From Oscillospiraceae bacterium (lineage in GTDB: Bacteria > Bacillota > Clostridia > TANB77 > CAG-508): a DNA stretch of 64,000 nt. The stretch's first letter is position 1, and each line of letters starts with the position of its first letter. Shown one piece after another: positions 57,555 to 61,959 of the stretch. Position numbers and translations under genes: made by a program. The stretch is taken from NCBI GenBank assembly GCA_009778695.1, contig WRFS01000003.1, forward strand, positions 19,974 through 83,973, written 5' to 3'. Under the pieces are notes generated by a model. It was not told the origin of the DNA and ran no database searches. It was given only the letters and a program-made list of their open reading frames with translations.

Positions 57555-57809
57555 TTATGCATGTTTTTGATATTTGAGCTTTGTCGCCATCCCTCCACGT
57601 ATATGCCTTTCTGCTTTATTTTCTTCCAATACAGCCCTAACTTGTGTGGCTAAAACTTTGTTAATATGTAGTAATCGTTGACTTACGTCCTTGTGGACGG
57701 TCGATTTAGAAATTCCAAATTTTTTTGCAGCTCCTCTTACCGTGTCTTTATTATCTATAATATAATGTGCCAAATTTACAGCACGTTCTTCTATCAAAAT
57801 ACTTCTCAT
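57555..57809 (-). CDS. spoIIID: Sporulation transcriptional regulator SpoIIID
   Basis: SpoIIID is a small DNA-binding regulator of mother-cell genes. The 84-aa protein has the helix-turn-helix VRGAAKKFGISKSTVHKDVS and the family text SILIEERAVNLAHYIID, then the basic tail HIRGGMATKLKYQK. I start at ATG 57809, preceded by AGGAGG; the longer frame to 57857 has no support. Length fits the family. Confidence 0.95.
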   Translation of the reverse strand: MRSILIEERAVNLAHYIIDNKDTVRGAAKKFGISKSTVHKDVSQRLLHINKVLATQVRAVLEENKAERHIRGGMATKLKYQKHA

Positions 57810-57927
57810 ACAAGAAAAACCTCCTAATAAATACATTGTTTTTACATGTGTATTCATTATTTGGTTTTTTATTCCTATTTTATTATGCGAAACTTCCCCT
57901 TATATTAGACTTCAGTAATCAGAAGAT

Positions 57928-58506
57928 TTATCCTTCACTTTTCCATAAGCTTACGAACTTTCCTATTTCATGAACTATTTTTGTTGAATTTTTTTGTGCA
58001 AGCATTTTGCCAATTGCTTTGCCACCAACAGTTAAAGATGCAACCAATGCACTTATTATAAACTGTAAGTTAAACTCTAAACCAAATTCCTGCATAATCT
58101 TAAAACTCAAAATTGCACTCATTGCACCACTCAACACTCCACAAACATCTCCAATAACATCTGCAAAAACAGCTGCAAATTTTGGTGAATGTTTAATCAT
58201 GAATAATGATATCTTAGCTCCTCTGGCTTTTTTACTTGCCTTTGCATGAAATTCATGTTCTTCAGCAACTGCAACAGCAATCGCCATAATGTCAAACACA
58301 ACACCTATTAGCACAACTAATATTAGTATTAGAATGGCTGGAATAATATTCAACTTATTCATTGATGTAGTAGATAAATATGAAAAAGACAATGAAACTA
58401 TAAATGTTATTATAACAACGATTATAAACCAACTTAAAGTTTCTCTATCTTTTTTATTTTTTATTTTATTATGCGATTTTTCTTCAACGCTTTTTTCTTG
58501 CTTCAT
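57928..58506 (-). CDS. Membrane protein of unknown role (CNNM/DUF21-like helices)
   Basis: The 192-aa protein has about four hydrophobic segments (WFIIVVIITFIVSLSFSYL, IIPAILILILVVLIGVVFDI) and a conserved-looking stretch AVAEEHEFHAKASKKARGAK followed by FAAVFADVIGDVCGVLSGA. The pattern recalls the CNNM transmembrane domain of CorB-like Mg2+ proteins but without CBS domains. The weak AAAAGGAG site is about 16 bases from the ATG, farther than usual. The large RNA candidate begins about 630 bases upstream and runs toward this gene. Confidence 0.65.
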   Translation of the reverse strand: MKQEKSVEEKSHNKIKNKKDRETLSWFIIVVIITFIVSLSFSYLSTTSMNKLNIIPAILILILVVLIGVVFDIMAIAVAVAEEHEFHAKASKKARGAKISLFMIKHSPKFAAVFADVIGDVCGVLSGAMSAILSFKIMQEFGLEFNLQFIISALVASLTVGGKAIGKMLAQKNSTKIVHEIGKFVSLWKSEG

Positions 58507-58544
58507 TTAAATTATGTATTAGACTCCTTTTAATATAAATTTTT

Positions 58545-59137
58545 GATGGTAAGAGCTTAAGTAAATTTTACGGTTTAGGTCTAGTAGAATTTCTCTGTTT
58601 CGTACTAAACATTACTGTATTAGCTGTTTCCATTTAACAAAACATTCTTTTAAAAAGAACACCAGATTACCACTTAAATCCGTACCTTAATCCCTAAGCT
58701 CCTATGTATAAAACTACAAACACTCTAGAGGTTTTCCCTGGGATATTGTTATATTATTAGTCCTTTTTGCAACACAAATTTCATAAAATAAATTTTTGGC
58801 GAAATTCATTTTAATTCCAATAATGTCACTCAAGACGAGCTACACTACGCATTTTATGCTAACTTAAACGTAGGTTTTACTTAATAATTTCAAATTTGCG
58901 GCTTAACGCTAATCACGTTGCTTGTGAATTAGCACCAATAAACTTGAAAATTTTAAGCCTCCACGAACATAGGGTAGATATGTATGCCATTACATAGGTC
59001 CCTATATTCTTTACTCCCCGCACACACACAAAACTGGGCGTTTCGCGCATATGCAAAAAACTTCAACGATATGCTCTTTAATGGATTTTTAGCCCCATTC
59101 TCACAATATACAATATCACTAGAATAATGCACCATCA
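58545..59137 (-). ncRNA. Candidate large structured RNA (about 590 nt), unclassified
   Basis: This gene-free stretch has a strong promoter on the minus strand (59143-59171). GATGGT at the RNA 5' end (59136-59131) pairs with ACCATC at its 3' end (58550-58545). Internal helices include GCATAT/ATATGC (59047-59074), ATAGGG/CCCTAT with inner TATGTA/TACATA (58969-59005), GGCTTAA/TTAAGCC with inner GCTAAT-CAC/GTG-ATTAGC (58900-58959), CTACG/CGTAG (58845-58873) and GTTTAG/CTAAAC (58573-58610). TTTCAA (58888) can pair with TTGAAA (58944) as a pseudoknot. GC content is higher than in other spacers. It has no tmRNA, RNase P or 6S features. Confidence 0.65.
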
Positions 59138-59142
59138 TTTAT

Positions 59143-59171
59143 ATTTTATCATATTTCTTGCATTTTATCAA
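59143..59171 (-). promoter_or_regulatory. Promoter of the large RNA candidate
   Basis: TTGATA (59171-59166) and TAAAAT (59148-59143) on the minus strand are 17 bases apart. Transcription would begin close to 59137, at the 5' strand of the closing stem. Confidence 0.8.
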
Positions 59172-59232
59172 CCTTTTTTGATGCAGAATTTTTGCCAAAT
59201 ACTAGTTAAGGGTTTAGCTAAAATGTCGCTGT

Positions 59233-59332
59233 TGTAGGGGCGAACATTGTTCGTCCTGCACTATAATTATCTCGTTTTTCAATAATTTTATCAAATTCCT
59301 CTAGTCTCGGACGAACAATGTTCGCCCCTACA
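59233..59332. repeat. GTAGGGGCGAACA inverted repeat pair
   Basis: TGTAGGGGCGAACATTGTTCG (split as arm 59233-59253) faces CGAACAATGTTCGCCCCTACA at 59312-59332. The same word occurs partly at 49065-49075. It lies just after the spoIVB stop and may serve as a bidirectional stem-loop. Confidence 0.8.
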
Positions 59333-59336
59333 TAGA

Positions 59337-60551
59337 TTATTCTCTCATTTGCTTTATCATTAAATCACTAAACACACCATAGCCAATAGTTGGGTCCGAA
59401 ACAAAAACATGTGTTACGACTCCAATTAATTTACCATTTTGAATAATCGGACTGCCACTCATTCCTTGTATAATTCCACCTGTTTTATCCAAAAGCCTTG
59501 GATCTGTAATTTTAATAGTCATGCTTTTGTTATCTTCATTATTGTTTAAAAATACTTTTTGAATTTCAATATCATATTCTTCTTTATCATTATTTTCCAA
59601 CATGCATATTATTTTTGCTTTACCAAGTTCGATTTCATCTCTACTTGCTACTGGAATAGCATCACTTGTATCTACATTTATTGCACTTAAATTATTTAAT
59701 TTACCAAAAATACCTAACTTTGTGTTTTTCGAAATTTCACCAATTACCGGCTGGTTTACAATACTTCCTCTTAACTCTCCAGGTTTTCCTTTTTCTCCTT
59801 TTTGAATTGAAATTATATTTGAAGTTACGATATTACCATTTGAAATTGTAATAAGCTCTCCTGTATCTACATCCATTATCCCATGTCCTAAAGCTGCAAA
59901 CATTCCTGTTGAAGGCTCATAAAATGAAATTGTTCCAATACCAGCTGCACTATCTCTTACCCATATTCCAAGTTTATATTGATTATCTTCTACTTTTTCT
60001 GGTGTTATGCTGGAAGTTAAAATTTCTCCATTCCTAACATACTTTAAATCTATGCTCTTTCCATCTGATTTATTAACTTCTTGTATTAATTCTGCTGTAC
60101 TAGTAATTGCTTTATTATTCACAGCAATAATCATGTCTCCTTCATCTATATTGCTATTTTCATATGGTTTCACTTTTTTATTATCCATATTTTCAACTTC
60201 TGTAACCCCAACCACGAGCACACCTTCAGTATATAATTTTAACCCAACCACATCACCGAGCGGCACAACATTAGCATTGGGTATAATATTTACATCAACA
60301 TTTTTAAGAGGAAATATATTAAAAAGTTTTAAAGATAATTCTTCATTATTTTTTAATTCTTCATTTAAGTTTTTATTTGTTAACACTGTTTTACCATTCT
60401 GTGATACAAAATCCAACCCTGCCAACGTTTTCATGTTAAGTTGTTCGTTATCGAAAAGTATTATACTATTTGGAATATTGTTTATATTACTTATATATGC
60501 AAATATTATTATTAAGAAAATTTGTATTAAAATTAAAAAAAATCTTTTCAT
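59337..60551 (-). CDS. spoIVB: SpoIVB sporulation signalling peptidase
   Basis: SpoIVB is the PDZ-containing serine protease that triggers SpoIVFB and pro-sigma-K processing. The protein has an N-terminal helix, a PDZ domain (residues 105-190, IDEGDMIIAVNNKAITSTAE) and the S55 domain with MFAALGHGIMDVD (His) and GIIQGMSGSPIIQNGKLIGV (Ser), then VTHVFVSDPTIGYG. Length (404 aa) is normal. spo0A, its usual downstream neighbour, is absent; a structured RNA candidate follows instead. Confidence 0.95.
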   Translation of the reverse strand: MKRFFLILIQIFLIIIFAYISNINNIPNSIILFDNEQLNMKTLAGLDFVSQNGKTVLTNKNLNEELKNNEELSLKLFNIFPLKNVDVNIIPNANVVPLGDVVGLKLYTEGVLVVGVTEVENMDNKKVKPYENSNIDEGDMIIAVNNKAITSTAELIQEVNKSDGKSIDLKYVRNGEILTSSITPEKVEDNQYKLGIWVRDSAAGIGTISFYEPSTGMFAALGHGIMDVDTGELITISNGNIVTSNIISIQKGEKGKPGELRGSIVNQPVIGEISKNTKLGIFGKLNNLSAINVDTSDAIPVASRDEIELGKAKIICMLENNDKEEYDIEIQKVFLNNNEDNKSMTIKITDPRLLDKTGGIIQGMSGSPIIQNGKLIGVVTHVFVSDPTIGYGVFSDLMIKQMRE

Positions 60552-60904: not shown

Positions 60905-61231
60905 CTAGTTGCTTATGACTACCTTCTTGCAGCACTTCTTGATTACTGTTATCTTCTTAACTACTTGCGTGCAGTGCTTTGTGACCGCCTTACGGTGTTT
61001 TTTCACCGGTTTGGCTTTTGTGACCACCTTGTGAGCCTTTTCAACCTTGTACGCTGGAGCTACCATGGTGGTCGTTGGAATTTCCCGCGGTTGTGGTTGT
61101 TGATAAACCACATACGATTGCGGTTGCGATTGCGGTTGTTGATAAACCACATATCGTGGACACCTTGCGCAACCACCCGTTACCATCGCCAATACTACCA
61201 TAAATCCACATACCGCCAACATCTTTTTCAT
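60905..61231 (-). CDS. Small basic lipoprotein of atypical composition
   Basis: I do not recognise this 108-aa protein. A lipoprotein-type signal (VVLAMVTGGCARC) is followed by a Gln/Pro/Tyr repeat (YVVYQQPQSQPQSYVVYQQP) and a Lys/Val/His-rich basic tail with Cys pairs (HCTQVVKKITVIKKCCKK). GC content is well above the local average. It has a GGAGG site and a leader shared with the next gene upstream (61281-61898). A role cannot be assigned; surface polymer or DNA binding is possible from the charge. Confidence 0.65.
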   Translation of the reverse strand: MKKMLAVCGFMVVLAMVTGGCARCPRYVVYQQPQSQPQSYVVYQQPQPREIPTTTMVAPAYKVEKAHKVVTKAKPVKKHRKAVTKHCTQVVKKITVIKKCCKKVVISN

Positions 61232-61237
61232 AACACT

Positions 61238-61274
61238 CCTCCAATTGAAGGGTTGTAATTAGGGCTTTCGCCCC
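61238..61274 (-). promoter_or_regulatory. Leader hairpin and ribosome binding site, copy 2
   Basis: On the minus strand GGGC-GAAA-GCCC forms a GNRA-type hairpin, followed by TAATTACAACCCTTCAATT and GGAGG. The same arrangement precedes the gene at 61898 with a compensated base pair (GGGT/ACCC). Confidence 0.75.
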
Positions 61275-61280
61275 GTGATG

Positions 61281-61898
61281 CTACTTGCCTTTGCACCGTT
61301 CTTCATAACAGCGATGCAATTCCCACGAGTCCCTCTCGTGGGGACCTAATGAACCTAAACAATTGTGCATACAATCGTCGTCTTCTTTTGGTTTGGCAAT
61401 CTCTTTTTGCGGTGGTTTTAAACTCTTTTTTGGTTTTACCACCTTTTGTGGACCACTAGTGCATTCTGGCTCCTGATTTGGCTCTCGGACCATATTCCCA
61501 AGAAAAATCACTGTTTGCCGTGTATTTTTGTTGACACAAGCTGCTTTTGCTTCTGGGGTATCATTCACAACTCCACTTACAACCTCTACAGGTACTACTT
61601 CATGGAGTATGGCTTTTCCTCTTCCAGCAACAACAGCATCATTTACTACGCCATACAATTTCTGATACTGCGGATTATTCCGTAGTTGTTGTTCGCTCGA
61701 CTGCGGCGAATAAAGACCTTGCTGTTGTTGTGAAGGATTAGCATATTGCATGTCAGTATATTGTGGCTGATTTTGCCATTGTGAATCATAATATTGCGAA
61801 TCATAATATGGTTGATTCTCAACATACCGTCGACTAGAACATGCCACCAATGTCATACCTACCATCATCAACATTGCTACTACTAGCATCTTTTGCAT
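61281..61898 (-). CDS. Lipoprotein of atypical composition (205 aa)
   Basis: I do not recognise this protein. The signal peptide ends in a clear lipobox (GMTLVACSS). The mature part begins with a Tyr/Gln/Ser low-complexity stretch (NQPYYDSQYYDSQWQNQPQY), then a valine-rich segment (LYGVVNDAVVAGRGKAILHE) and a Cys-containing basic end (CMHNCLGSLGPHERDSWELH). I start at 61898, after GGAGGAAAGAAA; a longer frame to 61943 would include the leader hairpin. It has a perfect consensus promoter, and shares GC-rich codon use and leader with the next gene, so they form a small foreign-looking operon. Confidence 0.7.
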   Translation of the reverse strand: MQKMLVVAMLMMVGMTLVACSSRRYVENQPYYDSQYYDSQWQNQPQYTDMQYANPSQQQQGLYSPQSSEQQLRNNPQYQKLYGVVNDAVVAGRGKAILHEVVPVEVVSGVVNDTPEAKAACVNKNTRQTVIFLGNMVREPNQEPECTSGPQKVVKPKKSLKPPQKEIAKPKEDDDCMHNCLGSLGPHERDSWELHRCYEERCKGK

Positions 61899-61905
61899 TT
61901 TCTTT

Positions 61906-61941
61906 CCTCCAATTGAAGGGTTGTTATAAGGGTTTTCACCC
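61906..61941 (-). promoter_or_regulatory. Leader hairpin and ribosome binding site, copy 1
   Basis: GGGT-GAAA-ACCC forms a GNRA-type hairpin, followed by TTATAACAACCCTTCAATT and GGAGG. It matches the leader at 61238-61274 with one covarying pair. Confidence 0.75.
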
Positions 61942-61959
61942 ATACATTATATACGTTCA

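Follow-up and report, generated by a model that had tools for sequence, protein, structure and literature searches.

An OLE RNA ahead of a very probable oapA gene in an Oscillospiraceae genome, with an altered L9.3 loop

OLE is among the largest bacterial RNAs without a known biochemical job. In Halalkalibacterium halodurans it has roles in Mg2+, cold, alcohol and carbon-source stress, binds dimers of the protein OapA and is anchored to the membrane (PMC11332333, PMC12265935, PMC9723947). OapA almost always accompanies OLE and has a relative in the CNNM domain of MpfA (PMC11332333), which is an all-protein system, unlike OLE–OapA. The OLE dimer is described as having three bridges, one of which, B3, is a kissing loop formed by L9.3 with itself; published L9.3 palindromes are GGCC, GAUC and AGCU (PMC12286853). 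ROOL and GOLLD, likewise ornate bacterial RNAs of large size, also assemble into homo-oligomers (PMC12286853). Finally, a form termed OLE variant 1, from the TANB77 clade, has shortened P7, P8 and P9 stems and often lacks the terminal OapB site of P13 (PMC11332333).

Here we analyse a window of 64,000 nucleotides (the whole stretch of DNA examined) from the Oscillospiraceae contig WRFS01000003.1, together with a sample of 195 genomes from the family of the source genome. Within this sample, 96 OLE loci were read with 1.5–2 kb of each flank, or less at contig ends. The analysis establishes the identity of the RNA in the window, its intact pairing pattern, a closing stem, the conservation of its promoter sequence and the co-occurrence of OLE with OapA. 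We consider it highly probable that this OLE RNA, lying directly ahead of what is very likely oapA and likely having its own conserved promoter, would act in a predicted membrane complex with OapA that helps the cell cope with divalent metal ions and stress. The window locus itself is an ordinary example of OLE. The family, in contrast, is a natural mutant collection, in which about half of the sampled genomes carry OLE, OapA follows in step and the dimer loop is repeatedly missing; comparison within it could ask which RNA parts, dimer contacts and protein partners OLE needs.

The OLE RNA and its promoter

The features discussed below are the following.

58530..59151, minus strand: OLE RNA (RF01071), given as the extent of the Rfam match; 345.6 bits; 140 of 146 placed pairs standard
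59143..59171, minus strand: predicted promoter of the sigma-70 type, TTGATA-17-TAAAAT, its -10 box preceded by TG; all 96 family loci have a -10 box at this position
59131..59136, minus strand: 5' arm of the closing stem, pairing with 58545-58550; 566 of 570 cells paired, covarying
58545..58550, minus strand: 3' arm of the closing stem, partner of 59136-59131; same counts
58784..58815, minus strand: shortened P9 hairpin with 12 predicted pairs and the loop CGCCAA; CGCC at 58798-58801
57928..58506, minus strand: very probable oapA, encoding the predicted membrane protein OapA (192 aa); assigned from OLE co-occurrence, position after ole, the CNNM profile of relatives and a CNNM fold
57555..57857, minus strand: spoIIID, the next gene downstream (PF12116, TIGR02844)
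59337..60551, minus strand: spoIVB, the next gene upstream (PF05580, TIGR02860)

A comparison of the window with 4227 Rfam families (cmscan) reveals OLE (RF01071) as the sole family above its cut-off. The match lies on the minus strand (59151-58530), scores 345.6 bits against a gathering cut-off of 50 and spans model positions 1-616 of 616, i.e., the entire model. A sequence-only reading of the window had named ROOL, GOLLD and OLE as possible relatives of this stretch, with membership unconfirmed, and had proposed an Infernal comparison with Rfam; the guess of OLE is borne out end to end. ROOL and GOLLD, for all their likeness to OLE, do not reach their own Rfam cut-offs within the window, nor do raiA, tmRNA, RNase P and 6S, and all six are rejected as candidates. 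A search of the window with ARAGORN found no tRNA or tmRNA. The ole gene is single-copy in the source genome. We therefore find that the stretch 58530-59151 (minus strand) is an OLE RNA and a well-supported new member of an established class, sharing with the full-length form (RF01071) a complete model match, the conserved blocks and an oapA gene next downstream.

The gap described as gene-free does lack genes between oapA and spoIVB (58507-59336), and the only listed frame of at least 60 aa inside the RNA, on either strand, is one mechanical ORF of 61 aa. A decayed protein gene, which had been named as what the stretch might be instead, is rejected: there is no large frame, and it is RNA structure that the relatives conserve. 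The claim of raised GC content holds only weakly, as the value of 0.323 exceeds the mean of 20 other gaps (0.298) but eight of those gaps are higher.

Analysis of the pairing pattern reveals that 140 of the 146 Rfam pairs that could be placed in the window RNA are standard, compared with 49–78 when partners are slid by 1–3 positions. In an alignment of the 96 family RNAs that made no use of structure, paired cells amount to 81%, versus 38–48% when slid, and double-sided changes occur at 112 of the 146 pairs (1145 cells) versus 57–79 pairs (263–629 cells) when slid. Covariation, for which a test among homologues had been suggested, is thus present among the family relatives, and the lack of conservation that had been named as a refutation does not apply. 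The folding energy of the window RNA is -168 kcal/mol, compared with -129.7 for 20 shuffles (z -6.6). In our own placing on the model, the region of the kink turn for OapC keeps J4a/5 (UUGAAG) and J6/7 (GUGGAG), and two bases are missing from the internal loop of the hairpin that follows J6/7.

The Rfam model of OLE has the RNA ends unpaired. The end-to-end closing stem that had been drawn from the window alone is nevertheless found across the family: its six pairs (RNA positions 16-21 with 602-607) are kept in 566 of 570 cells and show compensatory changes, with A-U, G-C, G-U and U-A all occurring at the outer two. Adding a seventh, outer pair between RNA positions 15 and 608, which forms in just 24 of 95 RNAs, gives 590 of 665 paired cells, versus 137–421 of 659–665 when the stem is slid.

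The claimed promoter is likewise present on the minus strand (TTGATA at 59171-59166, TAAAAT at 59148-59143, spacer 17). Its score by itself is at chance level here, with nine promoter-like matches in this stretch versus 9.8 expected in shuffles, and was rejected as evidence. The promoter counts instead because its position is conserved in relatives. TANNNT lies just upstream of the closing stem in 96/96 family OLE loci, TG precedes the -10 box in 80/96, and a -10 box together with a -35 box matching at least four of six bases is found in 89/96. In shuffled upstream sequence, the corresponding frequencies are 34% for the -10 box and 5% for both boxes, although the 96 loci are relatives and the Rfam match itself covers the -10 box, and they do not amount to 96 independent trials. 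Transcription of OLE would likely start near 59136. This predicted dedicated promoter differs from the arrangement reported for H. halodurans, in which a single polycistronic transcript covers the ole cluster (PMC12265935). The word promoter is absent from the available text of that review and present in other OLE papers, and novelty is not claimed for an OLE promoter.

The P9 region and the L9.3 loop

The window RNA departs most visibly from full-length relatives in P9. Between two conserved anchors, by whose intervening content the P9 classes were scored, 61 of the 70 family RNAs with GGCC have 53–61 bases, while the window RNA has 35, and its loop carries CGCC instead of GGCC or AGCU. Over all 96 family RNAs, the region contains GGCC in 70 and AGCU in 9, is too short for P9.3 in 15 and is of another kind in 2. 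GGCC or AGCU is thus found in 79 of the 81 RNAs whose P9 region is long, the exceptions being the window and one relative (G149). In predicted folds, the tetranucleotide sits in the apical loop in most rows.

A self-complementary L9.3 is absent in the window RNA, whose CGCC is one base off, a base that rests on a single draft assembly. Loop self-pairing, computed with one flanking base included, amounts to -9.1 kcal/mol for GGCC, -5.1 for AGCU and -1.5 for the window loop. By these energies, the kissing interaction through L9.3 that joins two OLE copies should be weaker with CGCC, and any dimer formed here would therefore probably rely on the two bridges other than B3.

In a quick RNA tree built without the P9 columns, the presence of P9.3 requires at least five changes, whose direction the tree does not determine, and the window row has a long branch and an unsure place. 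The switch between GGCC and AGCU needs only two changes in the same tree, so the conservation of GGCC may be largely a matter of shared ancestry. As 15 family members do without P9.3, we do not count L9.3 as defining OLE. We tentatively raise the possibility, itself rather unlikely, that L9.3 is all-or-none in this family and that OLE can function without B3, either as a monomer or as a dimer held less tightly, within a reduced OLE–OapA complex that replaces MpfA. The shorter P9 stems of variant 1 have already been noted (PMC11332333) and the palindromes are already published; new here are the L9.3 pattern within one family and one broken loop.

The shortened P9 and its CGCC loop could also be read as damage, in that the ole gene would be a decaying, non-functional relic in a reduced genome, its sequence drifting and its kissing loop broken. 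The window RNA lies on a long branch (0.52 changes per column), and 98 of the 195 sampled family genomes give no OLE match. Moreover, of the 181 columns with a conservation of 97% or more among 90 relatives, which were defined with the window RNA excluded, seven are changed in the window RNA, the most of any row if five divergent or cut rows are set aside. However, the remaining 174 columns are kept, the great majority of pairs (140/146) and the fold (z -6.6) are intact, as is the promoter sequence, and the adjoining oapA is open over 192 aa and 52–63% identical to 19 relatives. Of the seven changed columns, those at RNA positions 54 and 71 read as partners in a single pair that compensate each other. 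We consequently regard decay as very unlikely and retain the reading of an OLE RNA that acts with OapA.

As a separate observation, one relative (locus L076, genome G106) has an OLE P9 region of 166 bases, some 90 more than its closest kin. Inspection by eye shows inverted repeats there, and an insertion inside the RNA gene is perhaps the cause.

OapA, other partners and the proposed complex

The start codon of the gene downstream of ole lies 23 bases from the OLE Rfam match. Neither Pfam nor NCBIfam yields a match for its 192-aa product at E 0.001. Among the 20 aligned members of its protein family, a CNNM match (PF01595; E no higher than 1, best 3.6e-6) is obtained for all 19 relatives but not for the window protein. 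The nearest relatives come from Clostridia or Clostridium MAGs. An AlphaFold model of the window protein, of middling confidence (pLDDT 76.9, pTM 0.61), has CNNM/CorB/CorC chains in the first five places of its PDB fold matches (TM normalised to the query 0.40–0.56), the best at E 4.2e-3 and none reaching E 0.001. The nearest solved folds are thus those of the MpfA/CorB/CorC (CNNM) Mg transporters, from which the protein differs in that 192 aa leave no room for CBS and CorC_HlyC domains. Since it follows ole, has relatives that match CNNM, resembles CNNM transporters in its model and co-occurs with OLE, the membrane protein is very probably OapA.

In the family sample, OLE is found in 97/195 genomes and OapA in 97/195, with both in 96 and each alone once. 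The only genome with OLE and no OapA (G052) has its locus cut by a contig end, and the only one with OapA and no OLE (G115) has a weak, 23-bit OapA match. Within the stretch read, an OapA match follows ole in 94 of the 96 OLE loci, and in 93 of the 96 it begins no more than 433 bases away.

Two relatives have ole and oapA split by other DNA, of 1.8 kb in L080 (G010) and of ~1.9 kb, beyond the stretch read, in L096 (G134).

That OLE is mainly a cis-acting long leader controlling oapA expression, and not a free RNA, would suit its position immediately before oapA, at a distance of 23 bases, and the lack of any terminator-like site found between the two, but we give this hardly any credence, given the ~1.8–1.9 kb that separate the genes in G010 and G134, a spacing that otherwise ranges from none to 433 bases, and an H. 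halodurans OLE that is described as membrane-localised and among the most abundant RNAs besides rRNA and tRNA (PMC12265935).

The source genome, a draft that is 93% complete and 7% contaminated, contains bS21. An L7Ae-type OapC was not found in this draft, nor was CorC_HlyC, the MpfA marker. OapB was not detected either: the KOW profile, which may miss OapB and thus does not prove its absence, matches only two frames, namely a 186-aa frame assigned to NusG by size alone and a frame among ribosomal protein genes that reads as uL24. These absences weigh little because the genome is a draft. Across the family, L7Ae is found in 128/195 genomes, mostly in frames of ~100–115 aa. OapC is shorter than this, so the family frames may be YlxQ-like.

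The MpfA marker CorC_HlyC occurs in 63/97 genomes with OLE and in 86/98 others (Fisher p 2e-4, uncorrected for kinship), a tendency only, in the same direction as the published anticorrelation but less pronounced. Strict exclusion of MpfA by OLE within the family is rejected by the same 63 genomes.

Similar to variant 1, the window locus combines a small genome, a shorter P9 region, no OapC found and OapB undetected (PMC11332333). However, the window RNA still matches the full Rfam model, and its P7 is longer than in the model, whereas that of variant 1 is shortened. P8 is aligned with several non-standard pairs, and the P13 loop (ACAGUAAUGU) is close to most of the 16 rows listed. With no L7Ae-type OapC, OapB-like KOW protein or MpfA marker found in the draft, the complex is probably a lean version consisting of OLE and OapA, perhaps plus bS21, that stands in for MpfA.

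The proposed sequence of events would be as follows: (I) OLE is predicted to be transcribed from its conserved promoter, (II) the RNA would fold with its two ends joined, (III) by analogy with H. halodurans, OapA dimers may bind it and the complex may be placed at the membrane, and (IV) by the same analogy, this membrane complex may tune divalent ion transport and stress responses.

The surrounding DNA

The window locus, with spoIVB upstream and spoIIID downstream of ole (57555-60551), is the only one of the 96 family loci so arranged. We rejected these genes as a fixed OLE neighbourhood, as spoIVB lies within the flank read in 1/96 loci despite SpoIVB being found somewhere in 170/195 family genomes.

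Between spoIVB and the ole promoter, a 20-base repeat, GTAGGGGCGAACATTGTTCG, is present as an inverted pair (59234-59331). The draft genome contains this repeat in 49 exact copies, 25 on the plus and 24 on the minus strand, against none for the reversed control, and several copies form inverted pairs 77–78 bases apart. The repeat resembles a small non-coding mobile or REP-type element.

Further along, near the contig end, two lipoprotein-like frames (60905-61943) have no family match over the curated cut-off. They lie in or beside the 1-kb bin with the highest GC content of the window (0.42 at 61–62 kb; next highest 0.376), and this region is possibly foreign DNA or a chimeric assembly.
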